The position numbers were made by a program, and so were the translations under genes. A stretch of DNA of 64,000 nt, taken from the NCBI GenBank assembly GCA_016788585.1, contig JAEURP010000011.1, positions 1 through 64,000 on the forward strand, written 5' to 3'. Position 1 is the stretch's first letter, and every line of letters begins with the position of its first letter. Below, in pieces: positions 20,815-37,967 of the stretch. Below the pieces are notes generated by a model. The model did no database searches. It was not told the DNA's origin and saw nothing but the letters and a program-made list of their open reading frames with translations. This DNA comes from Chthonomonas sp. (lineage in GTDB: Bacteria > Armatimonadota > Fimbriimonadia > Fimbriimonadales > Fimbriimonadaceae).

Positions 20815-22455
20815 ATGCTTGGTTTGACTCTCGCGACAATTTTGAGCACAACCCCCGCAATTGCAGGCCGGGAAGTACTGTTGGCTCAGCCAACTCTGGT
20901 CGGGCTACCAGCTGCAGGTGGCACGGCAGGCTACATCCGTAACCAAGGCGGAAGAGGAGCATGTACCATGTTTGCCGCGACAGCAAACATCGAGTTCGCG
21001 GTTTGGAAAACGACCGGACGAGTTGTCGATCTCAGCGAGCAATTCCTTGCTCACATGGGCAAGGCGATGTACTTGCATGCAGAGTGGAACGACGTTTCCA
21101 GCCGAGGCATTGGGGCGACCGAGAGTCAGGTTGGAGGCACCGATGGCGGTGAATACTCGGGGACAAACGCGGACGGTGTTGCAATTCCAGTCGAGTCCGT
21201 CCTTCCCTACCGAGAGGTCGTGCCGTATTCCCCGCCGCTAGGTAATCCGGCATGGCTCAAGCAGTACAACGTTAACCGCTTTAACTTTGATGAGACGATA
21301 CTGCCGCGAGCAGCCCTCAATGGAAACAATTACTATCAAGCAACCGGCTATCGCAAGATCGACGACGGCAAGGATCCCGTTAAGTGTGAAGAAGTCCTCA
21401 ACTCGGGATGGCCAATGGTTTGGGATATGCAAGTAAAGGGCGACATCACTTTGCCCATCTGGCAGCCCTTGGAGCGTCCAGATTCTCTCGGCGGTCACGC
21501 CATGCTCATCGTTGGCTATGACAACCGCGGAGAAAGTGACCAAACAAAGTTCTTCTGGGTGAAGAACAGTTGGGGGCCGGGACCTCATCGAGATGGCCTT
21601 ACCAAAGTGAGTTACGCGTACTACAAAAAGTACGGCACTTTTGGGCACGCTATTTCTGGAGTCCGTACCGTGGCGCGACCTGGCTATCCTTTCCTGGGGC
21701 GATGGAAGTTGAACTCTCCCATGGTGAATGGCCTCCTTGATGTCAGCCACCTGCCCGGCACAACGCAAAGCGCTTGGAAGTACTTTGGTAAGCCGACGCA
21801 AGTCGATCACAGAATTGGCTTACTCTCATTTACATCGGGCGAATTCACTGACCGTACAACCATGTTGCGCGTCAATGGCGACATCGGCACTCGCGGACTA
21901 AATTTTCACTACAGCCTGACGAACAGGAATCAATCCTACTGGGACGAACCCAAGGCAGATAGCCAACGCGGATGGGTTAATGTCTTCTCGGAAGGCGGAC
22001 TCATGGCCGGCTTCATCAAAGTTGGCCCAACGATCACGGCAACCGTTGCCAGCAAGGACCCCTTGCCAGCGGCCACCGCCATTAGCGGTTCCGATGCGAC
22101 TAGTCTTCCTGGAACTTACACACTTCAGGCGGGCATCCTCCGGGGCACCTTGACCATTGCGGGGGCTACGAGTTCAGGCGCACGGCTCGAGTTCCCTGTC
22201 AGTGGAACCATCGGGGGCCGAAGCTACGCCGGAACTGCGTCACTCACCGACGCTTCGTCTCAACTTCGCGGTGGACCGTTCTCCATCGATACGCCACAGT
22301 GGGTGTTCTCGCTTACAGGAAGTCCGTCGTCGCGTGTCGATGAAAGGGCGCCTACTCGTGTCGTGCTCGTTGGAGGCAGGCCAAATCTGGGAGTCGCGCG
22401 CTTCGCGGGTCTGACAACAGGGTACGACGGATTTGTTCTTTGGCGGGCGCGGTAA
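20815..22455 (+). CDS. Secreted papain-like (C1 family) cysteine protease
   Basis: 546 aa, ATG 20815. Sec signal peptide MLGLTLATILSTTPAIAG. The catalytic domain has NQGGRGACTMFAA (oxyanion Gln44, nucleophile Cys50), SLGGHAMLIVGYD (His228) and FFWVKNSWGPG (Asn251), the complete papain triad, so it should be active. There is no evident pro-region between the signal peptide and the catalytic domain. The C-terminal 250 residues are beta-rich with low-complexity Gly/Ser/Thr and no recognised domain. The stop lies only 24 bases before the left att repeat of the mobile element, so this is the last chromosomal gene on that side. Confidence 0.88.
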   Translation: MLGLTLATILSTTPAIAGREVLLAQPTLVGLPAAGGTAGYIRNQGGRGACTMFAATANIEFAVWKTTGRVVDLSEQFLAHMGKAMYLHAEWNDVSSRGIGATESQVGGTDGGEYSGTNADGVAIPVESVLPYREVVPYSPPLGNPAWLKQYNVNRFNFDETILPRAALNGNNYYQATGYRKIDDGKDPVKCEEVLNSGWPMVWDMQVKGDITLPIWQPLERPDSLGGHAMLIVGYDNRGESDQTKFFWVKNSWGPGPHRDGLTKVSYAYYKKYGTFGHAISGVRTVARPGYPFLGRWKLNSPMVNGLLDVSHLPGTTQSAWKYFGKPTQVDHRIGLLSFTSGEFTDRTTMLRVNGDIGTRGLNFHYSLTNRNQSYWDEPKADSQRGWVNVFSEGGLMAGFIKVGPTITATVASKDPLPAATAISGSDATSLPGTYTLQAGILRGTLTIAGATSSGARLEFPVSGTIGGRSYAGTASLTDASSQLRGGPFSIDTPQWVFSLTGSPSSRVDERAPTRVVLVGGRPNLGVARFAGLTTGYDGFVLWRAR

Positions 22456-22479: not shown

Positions 22480-22524
<45 letters not shown>

Positions 22525-22778
22525 ACGCCGGGAATAGGCATCCAGGCACTCTCCTGTATAGGCTCCAGGTTCGAATCATCGATCCTATTACTCTCCTCTA
22601 TTGCCGTGTGCTCTGGGTAAAAGCCACCACGGGTAGCCACCATGCAGCTGACTAGTTTAGTGCGCACACGACAGCAAGTTTCGCCTTTTTCAAGAATCTT
22701 CGCGGAAATCCCGTGTTTTGGGATGCTTCCCCCTTTCAGTTACCGGACCACCAAATCGAGTGGTTCAGGAAACTGAAC
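22525..22778. other. Left end of the element, no gene seen
   Basis: 254 bases between the left repeat and the first element gene. No tRNA, terminator or convincing frame was found. Integrase arm sites could lie here but none was recognised. Confidence 0.5.
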
Positions 22779-23336
22779 ATGATCGAATACTTAACCTCTT
22801 ACAGCGCCATTCGCCAAGGACGAAAGGACGCTTCCGCCAACTTTCCCGCTGCAAATGAACCCGTATCTGGCTATCTTGGAAAGCTCGAAGCAACGGCAGA
22901 GGCTCATCTGCAGGATGAGGCGCAAGCCTTCCAAAAGAAAAGCCGCCGCCCCCTGCGCCGCCTCCAAGTGTACACGGAGCGCGAAGCCCGTGAGCAGAAG
23001 AAGCTCAATGAGGTGGAAGCCTTCTGGGACGAACGTGGCAAGAAGCCGCCATTCCCTGCGTGGCTTCACTACACCTTCCTGGCCCTCCTCTTCGCAGGCG
23101 ACTTTGCCCTGAACGAGGTCGCATTCCGGAAGTTTGAAGGGCACCCGCTCCTCAATATCCTCGCGACCCTGGCCGTCTGCACAAGCGTAACAGTTCTTGC
23201 CCACTATGTGGGCAAGACGTTGAAGGAGCCTCGCCGCAATAACTTTCAAAAACTCTTTGTAGGTGTGGCCATCCTTGCTTGTCTTGGAGGTGCTCTAAAC
23301 CCTAGCCCTTGCGAACTCTCGCAGGGGCACTCTTAG
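22779..23336 (+). CDS. Membrane protein at the left end of the element, hypothetical
   Basis: 185 aa from ATG 22779, chosen because AGGAA lies nine bases upstream; a GTG 22 codons earlier has no such site. Residues 1 to about 100 are charged and helical with a coiled-coil look (RPLRRLQVYTEREAREQKKL). Then come two or three hydrophobic segments (WLHYTFLALLFAGDFAL, LLNILATLAVCTSVTVLAHYVG, LFVGVAILACLGGAL). The C-terminus stops abruptly after the third segment with a short polar tail, so truncation or a frameshift is possible. No family is recognised; a membrane role in element transfer is speculation. Confidence 0.65.
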   Translation: MIEYLTSYSAIRQGRKDASANFPAANEPVSGYLGKLEATAEAHLQDEAQAFQKKSRRPLRRLQVYTEREAREQKKLNEVEAFWDERGKKPPFPAWLHYTFLALLFAGDFALNEVAFRKFEGHPLLNILATLAVCTSVTVLAHYVGKTLKEPRRNNFQKLFVGVAILACLGGALNPSPCELSQGHS

Positions 23337-23595
23337 AACCATAACGGTTTTGCCTGATGAATTCTTAGAAATTTGGCGAAGGAACGATTTGAGCAAGAGA
23401 CTCACACTTTGACGATCAAAGGGTTGAATGGTGAGGACAGCTTTACGGATTGCTGAGTTGAACCACGCCATTTTACTCAAGCAAACAGCTTTTCCCAGGC
23501 ACACGTGAAGGTACTTCTCACCCCCGCCACAGTGTGGCTCCAGATAAAGTCAAGGATGCAATTAGAAAGGCGAGGGAGTCAGCTATGGTTCCTCT

Positions 23596-23883
23596 TCACT
23601 TATCCTGCATAGGCAGAAAGTCCAAGTTCCAGGGGTCCAAGTCCTTTGGAAAGCTCGCTAGTTCGAAAAAAGTTGAATCCACGAGCAAAAGGGGGTCCTC
23701 CAAACTCTTGAAGTTTCTAGCATTCCACGCTGTATTGAGATGGTGGTAAAGGTGCGCAATGGAGAGATAGAGATCAGTGTCACTTACTTCCTCACTTTGA
23801 ATCCTATCAATCAGCCGCTGCAAATCTTCGGATAACTCCCGCAAGTGAAACCTCACCACTTCAGACTCCGCCCATTCGTTCAT
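23596..23883 (-). CDS. Small acidic protein after the RHS gene, candidate immunity protein
   Basis: 95 aa, ATG 23883, overlapping the RHS stop by four bases (ATGA), so translation is coupled. It is acidic and helical (SEVVRFHLRELSEDLQRLIDRI, LYLSIAHLYHHLNTAWNARN) with no signal peptide or membrane segment, hence cytoplasmic. A small acidic gene immediately after the variable tip of an RHS protein is the classic position of a cognate immunity gene in polymorphic toxin systems (established for RHS/CdiA-type loci). The assignment here rests on position and composition only; no immunity family is recognised. Confidence 0.65.
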   Translation of the reverse strand: MNEWAESEVVRFHLRELSEDLQRLIDRIQSEEVSDTDLYLSIAHLYHHLNTAWNARNFKSLEDPLLLVDSTFFELASFPKDLDPWNLDFLPMQDK

Positions 23884-26800
23884 TTCGTTGCTGCTTTGAA
23901 AAAGTTTTCTGTTAACACTTTAATGTCGTGCAGCCAGTGAGTTACTGTCACGCTGTTTGGATCTTTCACGATCTTATCAATGTGGTCTAGAATTCTAGCC
24001 ATTAACGAACTGCAAGCACTCGAGTTTGCAACCTGTTGAGGCGTCATAAAGGGTCGAGATTTAACAGAAGCCTGTGCCATGCTGTTCAGAATAGTTCGAC
24101 TCAAGTTCAACGCAGTTTGCTTCCCCAAAGTTTCTGTAAGAGTTTCGAGTAGAGCGAGCATCTCATCGGGACTTCCCCTCATAAGCTGAAGTAGAGCATT
24201 TCTCATGGAAGCACTGACAGAATCCTCCCGGCCATCTAAATCGTACCGATTAACTGGGTCGTTACTGCAGTATACGAACCAGTTCATGCCACTGCGAACT
24301 GGGTCCTCGCTGATAAACCTTCCTGCGCTCGGATCGTAGTATCTTGCTCGCATGTAAATGAGCCCTGACTCCTGGTCGAAGATGTGTCCTAGGTTCGCGC
24401 AAAAGCCCATACTTGGCGAGACTATGCCGCCATTATTGTCATAGGCCCGGACCATTCCCCATGCGTCATAGCGCTTCTCGTTCGTAAGGATGTAGTCATC
24501 GGTTCCGTCTCGCTCTAGACTCGCAATCATGTTGCCATGCCCATCGTAGACGGGAAAGCTACGATATTCTTGATTGAGCGTTACGCCCCCATACGTGTGA
24601 CCCTCGACGCGTTCTCCGACAATTGACTCCATGCCCCTGGCACCTAGGGTGTAGCGCATTTCATCGACCATCGTGTCCGAATCTGCATCGTAGGTTGCGT
24701 CTTCTTCCAGCGTCATTTGGCCGTCGTAACGCCAGCGCTTGGTCGGCTCATTCATCCACTCATTCGTGTCATAGAAGCCCGAGAGGTCATACCACTCGTA
24801 CCATCCCTCGACCTTGTTGATCACTTGCGTACTTCGAAGACCATTGGGAAGGTAGTAGTACGCGGATTCTCCAGCGTTGTCGGCTGAATAGATCATTCGG
24901 TTGAAATGATCCCATTCGCTGTCCATTTCGGAAGGGCCACCGAACAGTTGATTACCAACCGCATCAAATGTGCGGGCCCCAAGAGGTGTCTCAATCATAC
25001 GATTTAAATTGTCGTAGACGTACCCTGCATTTGCTCGATTACCTGCCGCATCGTAGGTCCATGTACCGTTGCTTCCGGAATCGTCGGAATAGCTTGCGCT
25101 CGTCAAGTAGTCGAGTTTGCTGTGGTATCCATAGGTTTCAGAGAACATGGTGCTGTTCGCCTGGTTCTTCAGAGTAAAGCCTGTGCGAAGCATGAAGTCC
25201 CCCGAATACGTGTAGTTTGCACTTCGAATTTGAGATACATCCCACCCCGGACTTGGTGTAGTTTCCCACGTGTTCCATTCAGTGACGAGGTGGGTCAATC
25301 GGCCACTGTCGTCGTAGCAGTATCGTTGCGACGCATACGAGGATGGCCGCATCGAATTTGAACCTGGGTCTCCCCATGGGTTGTCTCCGTACCAACTTCG
25401 ACTGGTCCCATCCCAATCGTTTGCTGTAGGAGTTGGTGCAAAGCGCGCTGTAAGCAAGCGCCCAGACTCTTCGAATGAGTAGGAGTATTCCTCGGCTGAA
25501 GGCACCCACTCATCTTCCCCGTCGTCCCACACGCACTCGACCATATTCGTGAATATAGGTTGTTCTTGTCCAGGCATGCCTACCCAAACATAATCGCGGT
25601 ACTCAAACTTTCTGGGAGTAGCCACATCTTGCGTCCGCATCGACTTGCGACGTCCAAAATTGTCATATTCATACACCACGGTATGAAAGTCGTTTGCGGT
25701 GGCGGTGGTCACGGACGTGACCTGACCGGCAGCATAAGTAAAGTACTGCTCACCTCCTTGCCCGTAGTCGAGTGCGTCCTGTAGCTCGCCAGTTTCACTA
25801 TCATACACATTTTGTACGACATGGTCGTACGAGACGCCGTTGTAGAGTTCAACGCTCTGGACAAGGCCATCATCGTCATAGGTGGTTTTTAGCTTACGGC
25901 CATTCGCATCCTCGACAATGAGCGCTCTACCGGATTGATCATATTCTTCCGTAGTTGTCGTTCGTTCATCGGCGGTTCCGTCAGCTTCCGTGACACTTGT
26001 CGGCATTCCCCAGGTGGGAGAGCCCGTACTACCGTACACTGTCGTTGTCTCCACATAGGCTGGTGTGCCCGTGACGACCTTCTGAAGCTTTTCCACACTG
26101 ATGGCTCTGCCATCCGAGTCGTAATCAAACTCAGCCGCGTGAATGCCGCCGTCAGGGCGAATTGTTCGTTTCCATTCGACATTCGAAACTGAAAGGTTGT
26201 TTGGAATCTCATCGGTCGCTTCCCAGCCTTCCGCTTCTATTTGATAAAACTCAAATTCATTGCTCACGTTACTGTCGATTCCAGAGCGATAGACTCGTTT
26301 CGTCTGTCCCTTCTTTCCATCTGCTGCAGAGCTATCGTAGTAATCGGTCCAACTGTAGCGTATGTTGCTCGGCGACGTAGTTCCAAAGTCGTATGGCCCA
26401 CGCACGGCCTTCTGCTGGAAGTACTTGTCTTTCCCCCAATAGGCGTAGTCAGTGACCATGTCGCGGACGTGCACAGTCGAATCGGCTAACAGCCCCTCAT
26501 AGACGAGTTCGCGCAACGGCTGACCTCTAAAGTTGTACCAACTCAGCTTGCCGGTTCCCCGGCGGCTTAAGAGCGTGCCACCGCCGTAACTCTCACTATC
26601 TTCGGACCCGCCAAAGCTGCCGTCATAAATCAGATTCTGCGTTTCGGAACTATAGACTTTTTGTGTCCTAGGAGGATTATGGTTGGACAACCCCCCGGGG
26701 TCTAGGCGGACGGCGCCCATGTATACGAAGGCTTGCGGATCATAGAAGTCGTCATCGCCATTGGGCACATCGAGCAAATCGATCAGTCCTGCAGACGGGG

Positions 26801-28322
26801 TCAGGTCCCAGCCGTACGAGGTTAGGGCATCATAGCCAGAGGTGCTTGATGGGGGAAAGCTCCCGTTCCCGTCAACCGTTACGCCAACAAGCGCAGACGT
26901 TATGACCGGCAATTCATCCGGCGCTGAATAGTCATCGCCAAGATCAGTGTCTGATCCCGTCATCGAAAATAAAGAGATTCTCTTCTTCAACCCCGTGGGC
27001 TGTGCGATGAGATACGTGTAGATGCTCGTGCCCGCGTAGCCCATCGGCGTTTCGACCCATGCGGCGCAGGAAAGAAAACTCGTCTCGAGCCCTCTCGGGT
27101 CCGTCACCTTTGTTAACACGTCAATATCGCTGTCCGCGAGTTGCGCCTGAGCGTAATCATATTCGGTGGTCTTTCCGCCCGCTGACTCCACCTCCACCAG
27201 GTAGCCGCCAGTAACGACGTAACCAACTTCACGACCGGAACTTACAGCATCCTTGACCTTGGCAAGATATGGGCTTGCACCCGAATCCGCATATTCAAAA
27301 TAGAGCGAGCGCCCGCCGGGCATGCTGATAGTCTCGAGGCGGTGCTCTCGCACCCAACCATTAGCCTTTTTGTAGTACACCCACCCATCGTCATATGAGT
27401 AGGTTGTCGGATTCCCGTGTCGGTCGGTAACGCTGGCGATCTTGAGGATATTGCTCGGCTCGCGCGTACTGTTACTTTGTCCCTGATCGCGTACGTTACC
27501 AAGCCCCCCAACCGCGTAGGTGTACGATCCAGGTGACCCCGATTGCCTCACATGCTCGCCGTGCTTCACGTACTCGTAGACGGTTCCTTCCGGCGTTGTG
27601 ATGGTCTGGCTCAGAGCGATCTGGTAGTGCTCGTTAGAATCAACCGTGACGTTTTCGTACACTGTTTCGATCACGTTCTGGTCCCAGCCCGGAGGCATAA
27701 CAATGCCGTCAACGTCTCGCTGCATGGTCACCTCCGTGCCCCCTGCGTCGGTCGCCATCATTGCACTCACGGGCTCCCCCGACATGCCGACCGTGTTGGG
27801 ATCGCGTGGTTGGTCACTCGGACGCTCCTTCATGGTGACGGGAACGCTCCGTACCGGAGCGCCTCCGTTCTTCAGCAGGCCACCCGCAGTAGAGCGTAAA
27901 TCGACACTCAAGGTCCAGCCAAAACCGAGTGGACCGTCATCCGGATTATTGGCACTATAAGTGCGTGTCATGTTGACCGGAATACCGTAGCCTCCCTCAA
28001 AGCTGAGGTCGGTGCTGCTCAGCGTCAGATTGCCGGTGGTGACGTCAACCCCATCAACGTTGATGCCCCATTTGGCGCTTCCTGACAAGTACGGATTCTG
28101 GGAGAACTTCCCTTTCAGATTCTTCAGATCATTGCCCAAAAGGTCGCGGGAAGGGCGAATCTTCGCTAACTTCTCCTGCTCCACTTTTGCTTTGGCAGCC
28201 TGTTCAGCCTGCCGTTCCTGCACGACGCTCGCTAAAGCGTTCATCGGCAAGGCAAACGAGGCGGTTCCCAATAGTGCCAGGACAGCACCGAGGCGAAAAA
28301 CTACAGAGGTTCGAGAGATCAT
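23880..28322 (-). CDS. Secreted RHS/YD-repeat protein with unrecognised C-terminal tip
   Basis: 1480 aa, ATG 28322. Sec signal peptide in residues 1-32 (LGAVLALLGTASFALPMNALA). Residues about 85-150 match the RHS N-terminal domain seen in DUF6531-type proteins (DVTTGNLTLSSTDLSFEGGY, GPLGFGWTLSVDLRS). YD repeats fill much of residues 380-1200 (TYSYDDGWVYY, EFDYDSDGRAISVEK, YVYDNLNRMIETPLGARTFD). The RHS core follows: YDGHGNMIASLERDG, GLIYMRARYYDPSAGRFISE, DPVNRYDLDG. After that lies a 113-residue helical tip with no known toxin motif. RHS shells encapsulate and deliver such tips. The gene is coupled to a C39-like peptidase upstream and a small protein downstream. Confidence 0.95.
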   Translation of the reverse strand: MISRTSVVFRLGAVLALLGTASFALPMNALASVVQERQAEQAAKAKVEQEKLAKIRPSRDLLGNDLKNLKGKFSQNPYLSGSAKWGINVDGVDVTTGNLTLSSTDLSFEGGYGIPVNMTRTYSANNPDDGPLGFGWTLSVDLRSTAGGLLKNGGAPVRSVPVTMKERPSDQPRDPNTVGMSGEPVSAMMATDAGGTEVTMQRDVDGIVMPPGWDQNVIETVYENVTVDSNEHYQIALSQTITTPEGTVYEYVKHGEHVRQSGSPGSYTYAVGGLGNVRDQGQSNSTREPSNILKIASVTDRHGNPTTYSYDDGWVYYKKANGWVREHRLETISMPGGRSLYFEYADSGASPYLAKVKDAVSSGREVGYVVTGGYLVEVESAGGKTTEYDYAQAQLADSDIDVLTKVTDPRGLETSFLSCAAWVETPMGYAGTSIYTYLIAQPTGLKKRISLFSMTGSDTDLGDDYSAPDELPVITSALVGVTVDGNGSFPPSSTSGYDALTSYGWDLTPSAGLIDLLDVPNGDDDFYDPQAFVYMGAVRLDPGGLSNHNPPRTQKVYSSETQNLIYDGSFGGSEDSESYGGGTLLSRRGTGKLSWYNFRGQPLRELVYEGLLADSTVHVRDMVTDYAYWGKDKYFQQKAVRGPYDFGTTSPSNIRYSWTDYYDSSAADGKKGQTKRVYRSGIDSNVSNEFEFYQIEAEGWEATDEIPNNLSVSNVEWKRTIRPDGGIHAAEFDYDSDGRAISVEKLQKVVTGTPAYVETTTVYGSTGSPTWGMPTSVTEADGTADERTTTTEEYDQSGRALIVEDANGRKLKTTYDDDGLVQSVELYNGVSYDHVVQNVYDSETGELQDALDYGQGGEQYFTYAAGQVTSVTTATANDFHTVVYEYDNFGRRKSMRTQDVATPRKFEYRDYVWVGMPGQEQPIFTNMVECVWDDGEDEWVPSAEEYSYSFEESGRLLTARFAPTPTANDWDGTSRSWYGDNPWGDPGSNSMRPSSYASQRYCYDDSGRLTHLVTEWNTWETTPSPGWDVSQIRSANYTYSGDFMLRTGFTLKNQANSTMFSETYGYHSKLDYLTSASYSDDSGSNGTWTYDAAGNRANAGYVYDNLNRMIETPLGARTFDAVGNQLFGGPSEMDSEWDHFNRMIYSADNAGESAYYYLPNGLRSTQVINKVEGWYEWYDLSGFYDTNEWMNEPTKRWRYDGQMTLEEDATYDADSDTMVDEMRYTLGARGMESIVGERVEGHTYGGVTLNQEYRSFPVYDGHGNMIASLERDGTDDYILTNEKRYDAWGMVRAYDNNGGIVSPSMGFCANLGHIFDQESGLIYMRARYYDPSAGRFISEDPVRSGMNWFVYCSNDPVNRYDLDGREDSVSASMRNALLQLMRGSPDEMLALLETLTETLGKQTALNLSRTILNSMAQASVKSRPFMTPQQVANSSACSSLMARILDHIDKIVKDPNSVTVTHWLHDIKVLTENFFKAATK

Positions 28323-29257
28323 GGGTAAAGGATCAGGGTCATGGCGCGAAACTCCGCGTCGTCTTCTTTAGGCAAGGCAAATTGTCGTGGACCGTTGAGG
28401 AGCGGGTCCCATACGGTGACAGCAGCATCTGAAACTTCTTCGGCAAGGACGTAGTGGCCCTCGGCGAGCCAAATGTATGGAGGCTTTAGCGCCCGAAAGT
28501 CCGGTGCATTGAGGTCCTTTCCTTCTGCGGCAACGCCGTGAGCCACGAGCCCCTTCATGAGGTTAAGCATTGTCGTTCCAGACTCGTCTTGACCGACAGA
28601 CTTCGCAATATCTTTGAGAGAAGTCTTCTTGCCGAGTTTGCTTGCGAGATAGTATTGGATTACCTTTGGGCCGCAGGCGGCAATGGCAAGCTTCGTAGCC
28701 TCTTCCTGTTTGGCGATTGCGCTTTCATACAGGGCAATGTCATTGGGATCGTTTTCGCCGGCCTTCAGACGAGTTAAGCGGCGAAAGGCTTGCACAGCCA
28801 GATGGCTCGTGGGGCGTTCCTTAATGAACGCCCGAAACTCTTTCTTGGCCTCCTCTTCCTTCCCTTCCGCAACGAGGCATACAATGCTTTGATACTTCGC
28901 TTGGTCTGGAACTGAGCCGTAGTCCTGGTGCTTTGCTCCTTTACCCGAGTACTTCTGGTCAACGGCCTGGAAAACTTTGCGGGCTGCACTGTAGTTCTTG
29001 GACTTCCCCAGTGCGTAACCGGCTTCCATGGCTTTACGTGCAATTAGATCTCCGGACTTTGGGTCCTCTACGTTTCGCATACGATCTAGATCAGCTTCGA
29101 GTTGATCCACCATTTCGGCGGGCTTTGAGGCGATGAGCTTCTTATCCGCTTGCGTCAATACAGACGCACTCTGTCGTGGCCCTGAAGTCACGAGGAAGCT
29201 TAGTCCTGCGATCGCAAGAAGGGCGAGGACTATTGCAGACGGGACGGTTCGACTCAC
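28319..29257 (-). CDS. Membrane-anchored C39-like cysteine peptidase with helical repeats
   Basis: 312 aa from GTG 29257, directly after the upstream TAA and overlapping the RHS start by four bases. An N-terminal hydrophobic segment (IVLALLAIAGLSFLV, residues 9-23) anchors or exports it. Residues 35-165 are TPR-like helices. Residues about 185-312 resemble the bacteriocin-processing C39 fold: AACGPKVIQYYL (Cys195), EGHYVLAEEV (His268) and VWDP (Asp284), giving a complete Cys-His-Asp set. Known C39 domains cut after double glycine in exported peptides. Here the likely substrate is the co-encoded RHS protein or the 510-aa secreted protein (inference). Confidence 0.8.
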   Translation of the reverse strand: MSRTVPSAIVLALLAIAGLSFLVTSGPRQSASVLTQADKKLIASKPAEMVDQLEADLDRMRNVEDPKSGDLIARKAMEAGYALGKSKNYSAARKVFQAVDQKYSGKGAKHQDYGSVPDQAKYQSIVCLVAEGKEEEAKKEFRAFIKERPTSHLAVQAFRRLTRLKAGENDPNDIALYESAIAKQEEATKLAIAACGPKVIQYYLASKLGKKTSLKDIAKSVGQDESGTTMLNLMKGLVAHGVAAEGKDLNAPDFRALKPPYIWLAEGHYVLAEEVSDAAVTVWDPLLNGPRQFALPKEDDAEFRAMTLILYP

Positions 29258-30790
29258 TTAGGGAGCCACCCACGTACCATTTCTGATCCAGTCAATACGT
29301 TTAAATCGCCAGGAAGCTGCTTCAATCGGGTCCCGCACAATGTCCCACGACTTAGGAGTCATTGCTTCAACTATGCGGCCACTATTTGATGAGTCTGCGA
29401 GGAAGGGCTGACCAACGAAATAAAACCATGTTGGACCGAGCGTCGGCTCCGAAGTCGATTGAACATCGAGCCCAGCGGGATAAATAGCGAATAGTTGGTT
29501 GCTTCCAGTCACGGAGTCGCTCCCGAGGTTCCATGAGTAAATTGGTCCTTGCTCCCAGTAGTCTGTTCCGCCAGAAGTTCCAATATTCAGGATATCCACC
29601 GCGTTGGGTTCGGCGGTCGGAGAGCCGCTCGCCATGGTTACGGGCCACCGATAACTCCACCTCTTCTGGCTGCTGATGAGCTCCGAGAGTGACGTTGTCG
29701 TGGTTGACTGAGGCGCAGCGAGCCTCGTCGCGATCGTCCCCGTGGAGTAGCCAGGTGAGGTTTCTCGACCTAAGCTAAACAGGGACATGGCCCGACCGAT
29801 GCGGATTTGCCCCCCTCCCAGCGAGGGAAACGGAGCAACGCCCTGCAGAATAGCTCTGCCGCTCTTGTCTTTTGGAGAACCGGACGTTGCTGACCGGCCC
29901 AAAAAGAGGCCCCCTTTGTATACGGAATTGCTGAAGTCGACGAACTGCGCTGGCTCGTTGGGATCTGCGTCTGGTAAACCACCCGCCGAGTCGGGCTGCC
30001 CGTAGGTTATTCGCGTGTCAATAGAAAAGACATTTGTGATTTCGTCCTTTCGATAGTAGACTCGCACCGTTCGCTTCTCAAGTTCATAGTAGGTTCCCGT
30101 TTGCGAGACGAGCGACGTTGAACTGTGTGTATAAGTGCCGTATGACGTAAAACTGCCGTTAGGACTGTTACCGGGCGACCAGTAATCTTGCGTATGGCCC
30201 GTTCCAGAGAAGTGAGCCCGATGCAGATTGTAATCGAACGTTGTTACATGCTCAATAACGAATTCATAGTCGAAGTAATAGCTGGATGTGTAGGTCAGCG
30301 TGTCGGGGTATAGGGTCTTGGCGACATTGAGCGTGGGATCAACGAAAGCGACAGTCTGGCTAAGCGCGCTGGTGAGCCAGTCCGACGAGGAAATTGAAAG
30401 CCCCGATTGCGTATGCAATTGGCTTGACAACGTCTGCGTTATCGGACCTCCGCCAAGGTAGTACATGTAGCGATCCATGTCCGTAACCGTTGAGTTCGCG
30501 GTTCCGGTTGGCACAGGGTAAGTCAGCACATGGTTGTCACTCACATATCCTCCCGAACTGCTGCTTGAGGTTGGATCTTCGAGTTCGAAGAGGATCTTTA
30601 AGATCGCCTCGGAGTCAGTGCTTGTGGACATCTTCTCGAAGAAGAGCCTCCCTACCGACGGCGGCGTGATGGTAGGTCCTGCGTTGGCAAAACTCTGGCC
30701 AATCACGGGCAATGCAAGTAACGCCAAAAGATAGAGCGGCTTATGTGCACTGGCAGCAAATGGCGAAACGTCGTTTCGACTCCTTCTCAT
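29258..30790 (-). CDS. Secreted hypothetical protein heading the RHS operon
   Basis: 510 aa from ATG 30790 with AGGGG five bases upstream (a TTG precedes it). A charged N-terminus is followed by a hydrophobic export segment (PLYLLALLALPVIGQSFANA), so it is exported. The mature part is rich in Ser, Thr, Tyr and Gly with alternating beta-type patterns (LTYTSSYYFDYEFVIEHVTTF). It has a Trp-containing C-terminus (WRFKRIDWIRNGTW). No family is recognised. It is followed with no gap by the C39-like peptidase and then the RHS gene, so it is probably a dedicated partner, for example a shell, adhesin or cleavage substrate. Confidence 0.82.
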   Translation of the reverse strand: MRRSRNDVSPFAASAHKPLYLLALLALPVIGQSFANAGPTITPPSVGRLFFEKMSTSTDSEAILKILFELEDPTSSSSSGGYVSDNHVLTYPVPTGTANSTVTDMDRYMYYLGGGPITQTLSSQLHTQSGLSISSSDWLTSALSQTVAFVDPTLNVAKTLYPDTLTYTSSYYFDYEFVIEHVTTFDYNLHRAHFSGTGHTQDYWSPGNSPNGSFTSYGTYTHSSTSLVSQTGTYYELEKRTVRVYYRKDEITNVFSIDTRITYGQPDSAGGLPDADPNEPAQFVDFSNSVYKGGLFLGRSATSGSPKDKSGRAILQGVAPFPSLGGGQIRIGRAMSLFSLGRETSPGYSTGTIATRLAAPQSTTTTSLSELISSQKRWSYRWPVTMASGSPTAEPNAVDILNIGTSGGTDYWEQGPIYSWNLGSDSVTGSNQLFAIYPAGLDVQSTSEPTLGPTWFYFVGQPFLADSSNSGRIVEAMTPKSWDIVRDPIEAASWRFKRIDWIRNGTWVAP

Positions 30791-30953
30791 CAATCCCCTT
30801 CAAAGCAAAGGCCGCAATGCTCCTAGCAACCTTATGTGTAAGGATAGAGGAAATCGCTCCGGAAGTCGCAACTTTTTTTACTTTTTTCTTATTTTTTAAT
30901 CTGAACTCCCTCAATCGATTCAAGCCATAAAATGAGCTTGACAGGATGAAAGC

Positions 30954-31877
30954 TTAGTTGAGTCGAGCCATTACCGGTCGAGCCTTGAGCAAGGACTTTG
31001 CCCACCGTCGCGCGCTTGGCCTCATATCAGGTTTCTGACAACCGGCATCGAATGCCTCGGAAAAGAGGTCTATCAATACACTAAGCAATCGAACTAGTCG
31101 AACATCGCGAGGAGGCTCAACTCCGGGTTGCCGAACCAATGCATGCGGAAACCTCCCTCGTACCATGCGGTCCTCCACCGTGTGGAACTGTGCGTCTAGT
31201 CCCTCAAATGGGTGACGACCATTAAACAGTAACTGGAAGACGACTACAGCCAGTGCGAAGCAGTCCTGACCCTGGTCTCTAAACCTACCCACTCTTCCTG
31301 CCAGCACTTCGGGCGCGCTATACTCGGGCCTGCCCACCATGCACGGGTATATTCGCGTTCCTTGTCGAACCTGGAAGCTGTCGCAGTCAATGACCATGAT
31401 CGATGCATCCTGTCGCACTAAGATGTTCTGGTCATTGACATCCCCAATCACATGTCCTGCCGAGTGAATCTGATGCACCACCGTGGCCAGATTTGCCGCA
31501 ACACACGTGAGAAAGTCGAGACTTACTCCTGGACAGCGTGCTTTACGAAGCTTCGGAATGGTCACCTCGAAGAGGCGAACCGTTCCGATTCCAAATGGCA
31601 TCACCATGCCCTGGACCTGGCTGTTCCTGGGGTCAAGAAGAGCATCTATTGGCCACGCAATGGCTGGCCTAGCTAAGCTTTGACGTGGAGCCGTTTTAAG
31701 CATCGCCGCAAGTTTCTCTGCTTGCTCTGAAGTTGGTTCCTTGTACACCTTCGCAACCTGGGAAGGTTGCCCCCGAACCTTGTAAACGGTCGCCTCGCCT
31801 CCTTGCCCGATAGCGTCTCCCTGAACTCGTATGGTCTTGCCGGTCTTAAGGGACCGGAATAAGGTCGGACTAGCCAC
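30954..31877 (-). CDS. Atypical protein kinase of TerY-P / YegI type
   Basis: 307 aa from GTG 31877, chosen because GGAGG lies just upstream and the codon overlaps the phosphatase stop; earlier starts would overlap it by up to 74 bases. Kinase signatures: glycine loop IGQGGEATVYKV (from residue 23), AKVYK lysine, and catalytic loop IGDVNDQN (144-151) with Gly-Asp in place of His-Arg-Asp but keeping Asp146 and Asn151. The DFG-like segment is DCDSFQV (164-170), then GRPEYSAPEVL and a conserved DCFALAVVVFQLL helix. The GD...N and DCDSFQ variants are those described for the kinase of TerY-P triads. It is encoded after the vWA and PP2C genes. Confidence 0.9.
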   Translation of the reverse strand: MASPTLFRSLKTGKTIRVQGDAIGQGGEATVYKVRGQPSQVAKVYKEPTSEQAEKLAAMLKTAPRQSLARPAIAWPIDALLDPRNSQVQGMVMPFGIGTVRLFEVTIPKLRKARCPGVSLDFLTCVAANLATVVHQIHSAGHVIGDVNDQNILVRQDASIMVIDCDSFQVRQGTRIYPCMVGRPEYSAPEVLAGRVGRFRDQGQDCFALAVVVFQLLFNGRHPFEGLDAQFHTVEDRMVRGRFPHALVRQPGVEPPRDVRLVRLLSVLIDLFSEAFDAGCQKPDMRPSARRWAKSLLKARPVMARLN

Positions 31878-32736
31878 TCCAACCCTCCGATGAGGCAATG
31901 ACGAGCGTACAGTCGTCATCGGTGACGCGCCGTACCCGCTCACTATCTAGCAGGGCTTTCAAGTCGTTGTCCGCCAGGTCAGCGCTCCACAATGGCTCCA
32001 AGAACGGCAGGAACGGTTCTCCCCGTACAAGTGCAATGCCCTCTAGTCCGTCTGAGAAGATCGCAATGTCCTGTATCCCAGCACGGTGCACCTTACTAAC
32101 AAGCATTTCTTCGTCCGGGAACCCCAGAAAATACGACGCGTTGGCGTACTCACCCTTGGCTGGAGCCGCTACGGTTGTAGCCCGACCGTCGGCTTCGCGA
32201 ACAACACAGGTGCAGTCGCCAATACTGGCGACTGCGATGAAGTCCTTGGTTGCTACGGCAACAACCAAGGTTGAGGCGAGGTCTTGTGTAAGTACACCGA
32301 GTGCCTCTGCGCCAGATTGGATGGCATGCTGGGCACGACCAACAGCATGCCTCAACAGATCCAGCAAGCCTGCATCAGTTACGCTCCGACCGAGGCCAGC
32401 TACGAGAGCCGTATGAGCTGCCTTCGTTGCCAGACGTGAACCGACGTTGCTGAAATGAGCGCTGCCCATTCCGTCGGCCAAGACCGCAACAAGGTACTCA
32501 TCATGGACACTTACCATGCAGTAATCATCGCTACCTCGCATGCGCTCGATGTGACTGGAGCCCGGAACTGAGGCCGAATTCACCCGCCACTTGAGAACTG
32601 GAACGACTTCTACTTGCGGCACAGAAACTTCTTGAAGAAGGGGGGTTCCCCCCCTCTTCAAAAGCCTCGGCAGTTGCCACGGTGTAGACCGTCTTCTCGC
32701 CGAGCAACGACGACCTTGTAGCAAGGACGTGATCAT
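31870..32736 (-). CDS. PP2C-family protein phosphatase of the TerY-P-like triad
   Basis: 288 aa, overlapping the vWA gene stop by four bases and followed by the kinase. Metal-binding motifs of PP2C are intact: GSDDYC (68-73), LADGMGSAH (87-95), SIGDC (171-175), FSDGLEG (227-233) and TDDDC (272-276). It should dephosphorylate Ser/Thr, plausibly reversing the adjacent kinase. The first 45 residues are a basic, Pro-rich extension without a domain; the in-frame region could begin later, but the four-base overlap supports the long form. Confidence 0.92.
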   Translation of the reverse strand: MITSLLQGRRCSARRRSTPWQLPRLLKRGGTPLLQEVSVPQVEVVPVLKWRVNSASVPGSSHIERMRGSDDYCMVSVHDEYLVAVLADGMGSAHFSNVGSRLATKAAHTALVAGLGRSVTDAGLLDLLRHAVGRAQHAIQSGAEALGVLTQDLASTLVVAVATKDFIAVASIGDCTCVVREADGRATTVAAPAKGEYANASYFLGFPDEEMLVSKVHRAGIQDIAIFSDGLEGIALVRGEPFLPFLEPLWSADLADNDLKALLDSERVRRVTDDDCTLVIASSEGWSG

Positions 32737-33419
32737 GAAACGGTCTCCCAGTCGTTTTCGATCGGAACGGTTACTTGGTGGCCAGCAGTAGTGCGTGTCA
32801 AGGTCTTGAACGATGCGGAGACAAACAAGAACAGATCCTTGAACTTGCTTGCCTTGAGTTCAATAGGCGAGCGCGCTGGGCTGAGCTGCTTCAGGAGGTT
32901 CATGTCTGCGCCTTCGACGCCGACGCAAAAGATTGATGCTTTGTGCATCTCCTCCGCTTCTTTCGCCCGGCGCATTGCCTCATCGAGGTACTCAGGGTCG
33001 GTGGGTTCCCCATCGGTGATGAGGAACACCCAGGGACGGAGATAGTCAATGCCAGACGCCCGCAACATACGCTTGCGATCTTCAAGGGCATCGAGAGCCC
33101 CGATGAGTGCCTGGCACAGCGATGTGCCTCCACTGGTCGTGAACTTCTGGGCAACCAAGTCATCCGCCGTTTTCCAGCCCTGACTCATGTCGAAGGTATC
33201 GGCAAACGGCACGATGAGCGGCTCAATGGACACCGAAGCCTTGGTGTCAGACTGAAGGTCGGCGATAAAGGCCTCGAATCCAGCATTGAGTTGATCAAGC
33301 TTGGCTCCTTCCATGCTGAGGGAGGTATCCAAAAGGATCACTGCTGGGACGCGTCGTGTGGTGTTCTCGCCTATTTCATTCGGGAGGACAACTGAGATTG
33401 CTTGTGTGGATTTATTCAT
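32733..33419 (-). CDS. TerY-like von Willebrand factor A protein
   Basis: 228 aa, ATG 33419. Complete MIDAS: DTSLSM (31-36), the TSGGTSL threonine region (95-101) and LITDGEP (133-139). It has the short vWA-only architecture of TerY. In the TerY-P arrangement (vWA, PP2C phosphatase, kinase) the vWA protein is thought to present the metal-dependent target or scaffold, and such triads are predicted to act in stress or anti-phage responses. Here all three genes overlap and run in one direction, and sit inside a mobile element. No TerC or TerD gene is in the window. Confidence 0.9.
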   Translation of the reverse strand: MNKSTQAISVVLPNEIGENTTRRVPAVILLDTSLSMEGAKLDQLNAGFEAFIADLQSDTKASVSIEPLIVPFADTFDMSQGWKTADDLVAQKFTTSGGTSLCQALIGALDALEDRKRMLRASGIDYLRPWVFLITDGEPTDPEYLDEAMRRAKEAEEMHKASIFCVGVEGADMNLLKQLSPARSPIELKASKFKDLFLFVSASFKTLTRTTAGHQVTVPIENDWETVS

Positions 33420-33736
33420 GGTGTTAACCTACTAGCGATCAGGGCTTTCTGACCGTCACCAGCTATAAGTAAACTGCCCTAGTGAAACACGGGATTCTCT
33501 GGGAAATCGCGATAAACACCGTACAAATACGGGCTACTTGCTTTGTAGCCCTCCTCCGCAAGCAGCAGCAGGTGTAGCCCTGCTTGAAGTGATTGGGTTC
33601 AAGTTGGGTCTGTTTCCAAACCCGACATTCCTGCAATTTATGCAGAATCTTTACCCTTCTTCGAGCCTCGTGAGAATGCCGGATTCGCTCTGGAATGCCG
33701 TGATTGTCTGCCTTTCAGACCTTAGAGTCTGCAGCC
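33420..33736. promoter_or_regulatory. Divergent intergenic region, TerY-like versus ATPase genes
   Basis: 317 bases between divergently transcribed genes. It holds an inverted repeat GGGCTAC, seven-base loop, GTAGCCC near 33532-33552, and a second TGTAGCCCTGC copy near 33571. TAGAGT (33723-33728) lies eight bases before the ATPase ATG. A 73-aa frame here (33538-33759) lacks any protein-like signal. Otherwise no gene is seen. Confidence 0.45.
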
Positions 33737-35089
33737 ATGAATCTCACAGACTTCATTGAATTTGCACTGGCAAAGATGGCTTGTCGGACCAACGACCGCG
33801 AGCCAACTGGCCCAAGTAGTCCATCGCCTGGCTTCCTGCTCGGTCACGATCCGGTAACGCATTCGCCGGTGCATCTCCACCTAAAGGACCGGCGCAAGCA
33901 CCTTTATGTCGTTGGCGCGAGTGGATGTGGAAAGACTAATCTCCTCCTTCGCCTACTGGACGACGATGTGAATGAGAATCGCAATGCAATTGTCATTGAC
34001 TTACGCGGCGACCTGGTGGACAGGGTCATCAAGCGACTCGCACCAGAGAGAATCAACGGGAACCAAATCCACTTGTTGGACTTTCGGAACGAAGTACATG
34101 CGGTTCCCTTTAATCCACTAGTTGGTCCTGGAAATGCGTACCGACGCGCCCTCCATCTGCTTGAGATCATCAAGGAAAGCTCGCCGAGTTGGGGCGTTCA
34201 ACTGGAAGAAACCATACGATTCTGTCTCATCGCGCTCGCTGAATCGCACGGTTCCATCTTAGATGTTGAGTTACTCCTCACGGACGGCGGGTTCCGAAGC
34301 AAGGTGCTTGGCAAATGTCGAGACGAGCAAACGTTGCGCTTCTTCGCTCGCTTTAGCAGACTCAGCCCGAGCCAGCAAACAACACTCACGCTCCCGGTGC
34401 TCAACAAGCTATCACCATTCTGGAGTGTTCCGCATATTCGCCAGACATTATCCTCGCGGCAATCCCTTGAATGGGGAGAGTGGATAGATAGGAAGGGCCA
34501 CATAGTCCTCATTGCCCTTGCCGCCCACAGTTATCCAGGTCTCGCCCAGACCATAGGCGGGCTTATCGTCGCTTCCATCCAGGAGGCAGTGATGGCTCGC
34601 GCCGATCAACCGCAAGGTTCACGAGTACCCATAACGTTGTATCTCGATGAATTCGAAACGATGGCAACGCCTACTTTTAGCACGATCATTGCCGAAGGGC
34701 GACGATTTGGCTTGTCGCTGCTACTGGCTCATCAAAACATCGCACAAATTGAGTCCCGGCTTCGGCAGACGATTCTGGGCAATGTGCAAACAAGTCTCTA
34801 CTTCCAGTGCTCGGCACATGATGCAACTCAGCTTGCTCGGGACATAGTTACACCGATTCAACCCAATGTCCTGAGGCAAAAGCTATCGTCCAGCCCCGTT
34901 GGGGTTGCATTCTTGAACAGGCGCGGTAAGCCCTCGACCATCGTGGCGACGTTCCACGAACCAGACCCCGAACTCAGCGAGGATGAGCTTCGAGAAAGAA
35001 AGCACATCCTTCAGATTCAGAAGAAGTTTGTGCCGAGAAAAGCACTTAATCGCCAGGAGGTTCGCCATGAGCGTCGTCCATTCATCTAG
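33737..35089 (+). CDS. VirD4/TraG-like DNA transfer ATPase
   Basis: 450 aa from ATG 33737; an earlier non-ATG codon 11 residues upstream is possible. Walker A VGASGCGKTN (residues about 63-72), Walker B ITLYLDEFE (about 306-314), and a following GRRFGLSLLLAHQNIAQ segment that is typical of coupling proteins and HerA-type ATPases. In conjugation such ATPases recruit and pump DNA. There is no N-terminal membrane segment, unlike classic VirD4, so it is closer to soluble TraG/HerA-like forms found with replication-relaxation proteins in mobile elements. The next gene overlaps by 23 bases. Confidence 0.85.
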   Translation: MNLTDFIEFALAKMACRTNDREPTGPSSPSPGFLLGHDPVTHSPVHLHLKDRRKHLYVVGASGCGKTNLLLRLLDDDVNENRNAIVIDLRGDLVDRVIKRLAPERINGNQIHLLDFRNEVHAVPFNPLVGPGNAYRRALHLLEIIKESSPSWGVQLEETIRFCLIALAESHGSILDVELLLTDGGFRSKVLGKCRDEQTLRFFARFSRLSPSQQTTLTLPVLNKLSPFWSVPHIRQTLSSRQSLEWGEWIDRKGHIVLIALAAHSYPGLAQTIGGLIVASIQEAVMARADQPQGSRVPITLYLDEFETMATPTFSTIIAEGRRFGLSLLLAHQNIAQIESRLRQTILGNVQTSLYFQCSAHDATQLARDIVTPIQPNVLRQKLSSSPVGVAFLNRRGKPSTIVATFHEPDPELSEDELRERKHILQIQKKFVPRKALNRQEVRHERRPFI

Positions 35090-35870
35090 GTGTGTTCTGC
35101 AACAGCGAGACCGACGACTTCTCGTTGATCTATATGGTCATAAGGTGCTTTCCCGGGACCACTTCATTGAGCTTGGACATTTCAAGTCCGTTGCGAGATG
35201 CAACGCACGTCTCCTGCGCCTCCGCCAGGGTGGATTCATCAAGCTACTGCGCCATCCCGCCTGGGGAAGCTCTTCTGCCTCACACTACATGCTGAGCGGC
35301 AAGGCTATCGCTGTCATTGCTGAAGCACTCGATAGACCTCCCTCCGAAGTCGCTCGCCAGATCAATGCAAAACCTGCCTTGCTCTACCTAGAGCACACGC
35401 TTCTGCTTGCCAATCTGCGCTGCCTCTTCACCAAGGCACTTGCGAGTAAACGCACGCCCTTCACGTGGCTTCCGGAGGGCCTGTGCCTTCATCGCTACCA
35501 GGTTGGTCTGGATGCGCGCGTCATCAAGCCAGACTCATTTGTCCGGTGGGGCGTAGATGATCAGGTTCAGAATTGGCTCATTGAGTTAGATTTGGGGCAC
35601 GCTTCGCTCCCTGCCCTGCGAAGGAAACTCGAGAACTACGCTAACTACTTTGCCGATGGTGCTTGCCACGATGCGTACGGGAGAGGCCGATTCGGAATTC
35701 TCTTCATCACCACGGGCGAGCGTCGTGTACGGGCGATTCTGGATGTTCTGACTACATATCCCGCGCTCAAAGGGTATGTAGTCAGTCAATCGAGTCTGGT
35801 CCTTAGCCCATTCGAAACAGACTGGCAATCCGTGAGCGGCCCGGTGTCTCTAATGGAGGCCATGGCATGA
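35067..35870 (+). CDS. Replication-relaxation-type protein
   Basis: 267 aa from ATG 35067, with AGGAGG upstream and a 23-base overlap with the ATPase stop. The N-terminal winged-helix part (RDRRLLVDLYGHKVLSRDHF, RLRQGGFIKLLRH) and the C-terminal nuclease-like part (LIELDLGHASLPALRRKLENY, GRFGILFITTGERR) match the pattern of the replication-relaxation family (PF13814), which is found on plasmids and integrative elements. It is thought to start DNA transfer or replication. Catalytic residues are not assigned here. It may replace the missing relaxase. Confidence 0.78.
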   Translation: MSVVHSSRCVLQQRDRRLLVDLYGHKVLSRDHFIELGHFKSVARCNARLLRLRQGGFIKLLRHPAWGSSSASHYMLSGKAIAVIAEALDRPPSEVARQINAKPALLYLEHTLLLANLRCLFTKALASKRTPFTWLPEGLCLHRYQVGLDARVIKPDSFVRWGVDDQVQNWLIELDLGHASLPALRRKLENYANYFADGACHDAYGRGRFGILFITTGERRVRAILDVLTTYPALKGYVVSQSSLVLSPFETDWQSVSGPVSLMEAMA

Positions 35871-36406
35871 TTATTTGCAAACACTGCCGAGAGTCTTGGC
35901 CAACTGACGCTCAGTTCTGTGGTTCTTGCGGTGGTTCGTTCAAAGGGAGGCGATGCCGCAAGGGTCACCTGAGCCCCAAGCGAGCAAGCGCCTGCGTCAC
36001 GTGCGGCTCGCATGACTTGACCGACTTTGCTGATAGCCTGCATCTTGGCACGCGGGCGCGAATCCTGGCCTGTATAGTCATGCTCGTCGCCTTGCGTATC
36101 TTGTCCGTGCATGCATGGAGCGTGCTCCAAACGACTGATTGGCTTCTTGGCCTCGTGCTCCCATTCCGTCCCCTTGCCACTGCCTTACAGATTGTATCGG
36201 TGGTTATCGTCTGGCTGACTTTCCGGAGCCTACTTGTTCTCTTTGCACGTGAGGCCGACGGGCGATTCAAGGCAGTGTCGGACGTTTGGAGGCCATTCGT
36301 CAAGGCTGGCTTCAGGGCTCTCTACTATGCCGCTAGGTACGGGGGGACAATGGTTAAGCGAGTTGTGGTAGGTAGTGAGCAGCCCAAGTCTGGGAGGAAA
36401 CGCTAA
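35867..36406 (+). CDS. Double zinc-ribbon membrane protein
   Basis: 179 aa, overlapping the previous stop by four bases. N-terminal zinc ribbons: CKHC, CGSC, a Cys-Lys-Gly-His patch and CVTC in residues 4-47. Two membrane segments follow (ILACIVMLVALRILSVHAWSV and LATALQIVSVVIVWLTF), then a basic tail. It presumably sits in the inner membrane with the ribbons in the cytoplasm. It belongs to the element's core module; the exact role is unknown. Confidence 0.78.
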   Translation: MIICKHCRESWPTDAQFCGSCGGSFKGRRCRKGHLSPKRASACVTCGSHDLTDFADSLHLGTRARILACIVMLVALRILSVHAWSVLQTTDWLLGLVLPFRPLATALQIVSVVIVWLTFRSLLVLFAREADGRFKAVSDVWRPFVKAGFRALYYAARYGGTMVKRVVVGSEQPKSGRKR

Positions 36407-36408
36407 TC

Positions 36409-36621
36409 ATGGCTCGGTCTAAGAAAGTGCCAATTGAGAGTCGTGGTAGTCTTACCCTGAATGAGGCCATGATTTACGTTGGCCTTGGCTACTCCAAAGC
36501 CCGTAAACTCGTCGCTGATGGCATCTGGGCCGCTTACCGGAATGGGCGAGAAATCCGCGTACTAAAGCGCTCCCTCGATGAGTGGATGGAACTGCAAGTT
36601 GCCGAGAGCTTTCTCGGCTAA
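36409..36621 (+). CDS. Excisionase-like helix-turn-helix protein
   Basis: 70 aa, AGGAAA upstream. The MerR/excisionase-type fold reads LTLNEAMIYVGLGYSKARKLVADG, then IWAAYRNGREIRVLKRSLDEWM, which is the usual one-helix-turn-helix plus wing with a DWM-like end. It lies eight bases before the integrase. It probably sets the direction of recombination at the att sites. Confidence 0.85.
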   Translation: MARSKKVPIESRGSLTLNEAMIYVGLGYSKARKLVADGIWAAYRNGREIRVLKRSLDEWMELQVAESFLG

Positions 36622-36629
36622 GGACTAAT

Positions 36630-37967
<1,338 letters not shown>

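Follow-up and report, generated by a model that had tools for sequence, protein, structure and literature searches.

What does a membrane-anchored cysteine peptidase do when it is encoded beside an exported rearrangement hotspot (RHS) protein? This question is raised by a four-gene operon, all on the minus strand, in a 64,000-nucleotide stretch of Chthonomonas sp. DNA (Fimbriimonadaceae, Armatimonadota; assembly GCA_016788585.1, contig JAEURP010000011.1, positions 1 to 64,000), hereafter the window, which is part of a 173-kb contig in a 2.38-Mb assembly. The operon encodes, in order of transcription, a secreted 510-aa protein, the peptidase, the RHS protein and a 95-aa candidate immunity protein (Table 1). 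An earlier interpretation made from the letters alone (the sequence-only reading) had proposed that these genes are one unit and that the peptidase may take over from the internal aspartyl protease that releases the tip of known RHS proteins. We confirmed the operon at 23596-30790, and the unit is borne out by its conservation and by gene spacings of 0, -4 and -4 bases, with ATGA-type overlaps at the second and third junctions. For the peptidase we arrive at a different role. The locus is probably an Armatimonadota operon for a polymorphic RHS toxin and for a dedicated stand-alone, extracytoplasmic C39 leader peptidase, which would dock on a leader at the RHS N-terminus and probably cut it, with the RHS aspartyl site freeing the tip.

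The peptidase is a C39 enzyme by both profile and fold. Pfam Peptidase_C39 (PF03412) matched residues 195-292 with 36.4 bits (cut-off 22), preceded by weak tetratricopeptide repeat (TPR) matches, and a family profile found PCAT1 with an E-value of 1.6e-13. The AlphaFold model, based on an alignment of 15 homologues, had a predicted local distance difference test score (pLDDT) of 88, and Foldseek showed that it resembles the peptidase domains of PCAT1, ComA and LahT (TM-scores of 0.61-0.72, normalised to target length); other fold matches included a C39-like domain (3zua) and HlyB/D. Cys195 is invariant in the 15 homologues, with conservation of at least 90% for His268 and Asp284, while in a wider set the triad was present, where aligned, in 58/60 (Cys), 57/60 (His) and 46/48 (Asp) proteins. 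The proposed C39-like nature and full Cys-His-Asp set of the enzyme were therefore confirmed, also by the predicted structure. The protein has no ATP-binding cassette (ABC) transporter domains and consists of an anchor, TPR and C39 only. A hydrophobic N-terminal segment was present in all 23 C39 homologues checked, and the TPR part resembles the periplasmic and outer-membrane TPR proteins CpoB and BamD. Because of this anchor and this resemblance, we infer that the C39 protein faces outward from the cytoplasm.

C39 peptidase homologues were detected in 18 of 101 relatives, and a profile search found the peptidase in 27 of 85 family genomes; the single C39 protein used as query in a first contig scan had given no matches. 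Reading the neighbourhoods revealed that the order secreted protein, C39, RHS, small gene recurs repeatedly in Fimbriimonadaceae. By our own count from RHS and C39 searches, a C39 gene lies directly upstream of 21 of the 24 N-terminus-bearing RHS genes of the window type in the family, and in the three remaining cases the contig breaks off (G105), the gene is a paralogue whose genome does contain a C39 (G115), or the gene looks degraded (G043). This C39-RHS linkage is far beyond chance. Co-occurrence of the four gene families holds in Fimbriimonadaceae for the first three genes, and homologues of the 95-aa protein were seen in two genomes (G001 and G011). In other families of the phylum, C39 still adjoins RHS on its upstream side, with different large genes further upstream (L073-L076, L079 and L091). 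Furthermore, several genomes, among them that of a second species in the genus (G002, L067), encode a C39-RHS fusion in which C39 forms the N-terminal part, and the fullest of these fusions read TPR-C39-DUF6531-RHS. A second class of fusions (L063, L064, L067, L088, L105 and L115) carries a conserved C-x-D-CG...W-x-Q-W segment after C39; the catalytic Cys is lost in L105.

What is new at these loci is the N-terminal motif of the C39-linked RHS proteins. These proteins begin with a predicted signal peptide (in the window a basic n-region, a hydrophobic core and ALA-S, with similar segments in homologues), and between this and DUF6531, inside an otherwise unalignable linker, they share the motif R(-14)-x-L(-12)-[TS]-x-x-E(-8)-[ML](-7)-x-x-[LI](-4)-x-G(-2)-[RK](-1). 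Substrates of C39 peptidases follow the consensus L(-12)XXXE(-8)L(-7)XXXXG(-2)G(-1), in which the hydrophobic residues at -4, -7 and -12 are bound in the groove; the pockets and the consensus have been established for PCAT1 and LahT (PMC6959990, PMC6363468). The RHS motif fits this double-glycine leader consensus except at -1. A test pattern derived from the published consensus only, with -1 left free, was scanned against the first 160 residues and matched 23/32 linked compared with 0/18 unlinked DUF6531/RHS proteins (Fisher P = 4e-7, which overstates the certainty since the sequences are related), with an expectation of ∼2% per protein in shuffled sequences. The linked set covers several families and its RHS bodies are very diverged, several of the unlinked controls come from genomes that also hold a C39-RHS locus, and L105 (a C39-RHS fusion) and L115 (a C39 protein with DUF6531) were excluded from the controls. 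Position by position, the 32 linked proteins have G(-2) in 32/32, L/M(-12) in 32/32, E/D(-8) in 28/32, M/L(-7) in 30/32 and L/I(-4) in 26/32. A strict form of the motif occurred in 22 of 745 neighbourhood open reading frames (ORFs), nearly all of them RHS N-termini. In fusions L038, L083 and L084, the motif stands directly after the C39 domain with a true Gly-Gly, in an LSxxELxxxWGG-like form (for example LSQQELASAWGG and LSMADLENAWGG). The corresponding residues in the window are L61(-12), D65(-8), L66(-7), L69(-4), G71(-2) and K72(-1). We also considered the 510-aa secreted protein as the C39 substrate and rejected it, as the leader motif was not found in the upstream secreted proteins scanned.

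These comparisons argue strongly that C39 recognises the RHS leader motif and, with moderate force, that it cleaves there. Several observations pull the other way. The -1 residue of the linked proteins is R in 16, K in 10, A in 4, T in 1 and G in 1, with K in the window protein; the C39 enzymes that have been characterised, however, call for Gly, Ala or Ser at this position. In addition, the oxyanion Gln, six residues before the Cys in PCAT1, is replaced, mostly by K/R. The window motif RDLLGNDLKNLKGK is itself somewhat degenerate, with D for E at -8 and L for T/S at -11, and the second class of fusions has no leader motif after C39. Lys/Arg at -1 and the missing Gln weaken the case for cleavage in particular, although the essentiality of this Gln has been doubted (PMC6363468). 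The same two departures, together with the C39-like domain (3zua) and HlyB/D among the fold matches, would also suit a C39 that only docks, i.e. a membrane-anchored chaperone or tether that holds the leader-like helix without cutting it, comparable to the C39-like domain of HlyB. However, a binding-only domain has no need of Cys, His and Asp, which are almost perfectly kept, and some members have a true GG site. Docking alone is possible but unlikely.

At the other end of the RHS protein, the sequences vary between loci as in polymorphic toxins. Within loci, cores share 73% identity compared with 23% for tips (medians, 19 pairs). At ∼15 loci, orphan ORFs of core plus tip lie downstream of the RHS gene, each then followed by a small gene; these small genes often encode membrane proteins, judged by sequence, and matched no known immunity family in Pfam. 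Many of the tips, including those of L026, L028, L032, L034, L048 and others, are hydrophobic, with a small gene resembling those for membrane proteins next downstream, which suggests pore-forming tips with membrane immunity proteins, and several strongly hydrophobic tips recall the pore-forming tip of Tse5. The tip of the C39-RHS fusion L063 belongs to a known toxin family, Tox-REase-7. The window tip is soluble and matched no Pfam family; it is the single tip in the window, where no further RHS cassette was seen. In G001, a genome of the same genus, a homologue of the 95-aa protein stands between a homologous tip (56% identity), which it directly follows, and another RHS core. This supports a pairing of the window tip with the 95-aa protein as its candidate immunity partner; in G011, a homologue of the 95-aa protein adjoins an RHS cassette. 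The immunity role that had been suggested for the 95-aa protein is hence plausible. PADLOC gave no match for any of the four operon proteins. Elsewhere in the same genome (G000:C6:35659-40432, L047) there are three consecutive short RHS proteins of ∼480-545 aa without C39 or the leader motif, and G011, a one-contig genome without a C39 match, holds an array of at least six orphan RHS core-plus-tip cassettes (G011:C1:525497-538245).

The variable end could also belong to a surface or adhesion structure that is not a toxin, with C39 serving its display or shedding as LapG does with LapA. Sec export and a secreted partner gene would be in keeping with this, as would the fact that most tips match no known toxin family, and LapG is a precedent for a periplasmic cysteine protease that cuts the N-terminus of an adhesin. 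Indeed, LapG-LapA/BapA and the present system share a predicted extracytoplasmic cysteine protease acting on the N-terminal part of a large exported protein. Yet LapG is not a C39 enzyme, its system lacks a double-glycine motif, and its substrate is an RTX-type adhesin with a cyclic di-GMP switch. Moreover, two hallmarks of polymorphic toxins are present, namely orphan core-plus-tip cassettes with a small gene after each one and, in one fusion, a Tox-REase-7 tip. We consider an adhesin distinctly unlikely.

Known Rhs proteins release their tip by means of an aspartate pair within DPXGX18DPXG (PMC8765631, PMC10684867). The RHS protein of the window has DUF6531, RHS/YD repeats and the Rhs-associated core (Pfam, NCBIfam), and both catalytic aspartates (D1340 and D1361 in the window) were kept in every core examined (25/25 machine-parsed, the remainder by eye). 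The full DPXG-X18/19-DPXG with W/L/F at the cut was absent: the window reads DPVR...DLDGR and most members have DxxG[K/N/Q]. This change of the flanks, from DPxG...DPxG[WLF] to DPxx...DxxG[K/R/N/Q], could mean that autocleavage is altered, which would leave room for the sequence-only reading, in which a C39 cut at the RHS C-terminus takes over tip release from the aspartyl protease. However, the aspartates are retained, C39 is always upstream or, in the fusions, N-terminal, and the C39-type motif lies at the opposite end of the protein, before the DUF6531 plug. As first choice for the tip-releasing protease, C39 was thus rejected; tip release by C39 is highly improbable and the function first proposed is probably wrong. 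Since both aspartates are kept, albeit in an altered flanking consensus, the simplest reading leaves the tip to them and assigns the N-terminus to C39. A C39 that is itself a C-terminal toxin domain (Tox-PLC39) was also rejected, because here C39 is a separate upstream gene or N-terminal. That C39 and RHS merely share an operon, with another protein as the true C39 substrate, is hardly credible given the repeated fusions, the phylum-wide adjacency and a recognition motif that is found only in linked RHS proteins and is absent from the upstream secreted proteins.

We propose the following order of events for a leader-processing C39. Judging from the signal sequences, the RHS protein would be exported by Sec, and TPR-C39 would be anchored in the inner membrane so that its peptidase lies on the extracytoplasmic side. 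The C39 groove would then bind the RHS leader helix and cut at or next to Gly(-2), as the motif and the co-occurrence suggest, and the cut would detach the N-terminal segment or, in fusion proteins, the C39 module from the RHS shell. Separately, the RHS aspartyl site, whose aspartates are retained, would free the C-terminal tip. The comparative data further suggest that tips are swapped from the downstream orphan core-plus-tip cassettes and that they are toxins paired with the following small gene, i.e. the 95-aa protein in the window. The 510-aa protein is a conserved secreted partner, possibly in surface display or outer-membrane passage, a role that is a guess. Its C-terminal half is beta-rich and family-specific with a conserved YKGGLFVG motif, it had no Pfam, NCBIfam or PDB match, PDB and Pfam profile searches gave nothing useful, and its AlphaFold2 (AF2) model was unreliable (pLDDT 44); an alternative TTG start lies three bases earlier, at 30793. 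Taken as a whole, the arrangement looks, with the balance tipping only slightly in its favour, like a bacteriocin-type leader/peptidase pair that was relocated to the outer side of the inner membrane and joined to giant RHS toxins, with a TPR-C39 of altered P1 preference (Gly-Arg/Lys for Gly-Gly) maturing the toxin before the plug.

The system combines features of several characterised ones. With PCAT1, ComA and LahT it shares the C39 fold and the Cys-His-Asp triad, and with their substrates L(-12), E(-8), L/M(-7), a hydrophobic -4 and G(-2). It differs from them in having TPR and a membrane anchor in place of an attached ABC transporter, in its predicted extracytoplasmic location, in its replaced oxyanion Gln and in its predicted substrate, a 1480-aa Sec-exported RHS protein with K/R at -1. 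Like the type VI secretion system (T6SS) Rhs effectors RhsA, Tse5, TseI and Rhs1, the RHS protein has a DUF6531 plug, a YD-repeat shell and an aspartate pair before a variable tip, with a small gene following. RhsA and Tse5 are cut N-terminally just before the plug, by a mechanism and for a purpose that have been called unknown or enigmatic (PMC8765631, PMC10684867), and the window leader motif is in the same position. In contrast to the T6SS effectors, no PAAR- or VgrG-binding parts were detected here by Pfam; their place is taken by the signal peptide and leader, and a separate peptidase with a recognition motif would act at the N-terminal site instead of self-cleavage. Papain-like and C39 domains have been associated with RHS polymorphic toxins before (PMC3482391): Tox-PLC39 has been described as a toxin domain at the C-terminus, and Tox-PL1 either as a toxin or as an internal autopeptidase. 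Here, in contrast, C39 is upstream or N-terminal with a leader motif beside it. Apart from the Tox-PLC39 toxin domain, the open-access library searched yielded no paper that connects RHS proteins with C39 or with double-glycine leaders, and none that describes an exported RHS protein with a cysteine peptidase of its own; the view that such an enzyme departs from the known design thus stands.

The RHS operon is the cargo of an integrated, possibly mobilisable element of ∼15 kb (22480-37936), because direct repeats of a tRNA-Lys 3′ end flank the operon, a coupling protein and a Replic_Relax protein, with an integrase beside the second repeat. The tRNA-Lys segment recurs several times in sister genomes. 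Directly upstream of the operon, on the same strand, genes with the Pfam domains of a kinase, a PP2C phosphatase and a VWA-domain protein form one run (30954-33419), which we take to resemble a TerY-P type triad. Just outside the left repeat lies a gene for a secreted papain-family (C1) protease with a C-terminal extension (20815-22455).

Table 1. Positions in the window of the operon, its protein features and the element that carries it
Feature	Position	Strand	Basis
First gene, secreted 510-aa protein	29258..30790	-	ORF; homologues directly upstream of C39 in family loci
TPR + C39 peptidase, 312 aa, N-terminal membrane anchor	28319..29257	-	Pfam, AF2, Foldseek, profile match to PCAT1
Hydrophobic N-terminal anchor helix of C39 protein, residues 7-23	29189..29239	-	AF2 helix 7-23
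C39 domain, residues 195-292, with Cys195, His268, Asp284	28382..28675	-	Pfam and conservation
Exported RHS protein, 1480 aa	23880..28322	-	ORF; DUF6531, RHS repeat, Rhs_assc_core
Predicted Sec signal peptide of RHS protein, ~residues 1-31	28230..28322	-	Read from sequence
Double-glycine-type leader motif RDLLGNDLKNLKGK, RHS residues 59-72	28107..28148	-	Consensus from PMC6959990, PMC6363468
DUF6531, N-terminal plug of RHS shell	27894..28055	-	Pfam
Rhs-associated core with aspartate pair D1340 and D1361	24231..24470	-	Domain match and aspartate parsing
C-terminal variable tip, residues 1366-1480, candidate toxin	23883..24227	-	Tips vary between loci, cores do not; homologous tip in G001
95-aa candidate immunity protein	23596..23883	-	ORF; homologues beside tip/cassette in G001 and G011
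Direct repeat of tRNA-Lys 3′ end, candidate attachment site	22480..22524	.	Exact 45-bp repeat
Second 45-bp repeat copy, inside tRNA-Lys	37892..37936	.	Exact repeat
Tyrosine integrase, beside second repeat	36582..37961	+	Pfam Phage_integrase
TraD/TrwB-like coupling protein, between repeats	33704-35089		
Replic_Relax protein, between repeats	34983-35870		

If the proposed role is true, the RHS proteins of Armatimonadota would have a defined enzyme for their N-terminal processing, a step still lacking an explanation in T6SS Rhs effectors. With the peptidase and the motif that it probably recognises encoded side by side, two small constructs would suffice to test N-terminal RHS processing directly. 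A C39 enzyme would moreover be placed outside the cytoplasm, and double-glycine leaders would occur not just on small peptides exported by ABC transporters but also on Sec-exported proteins of ∼160 kDa.

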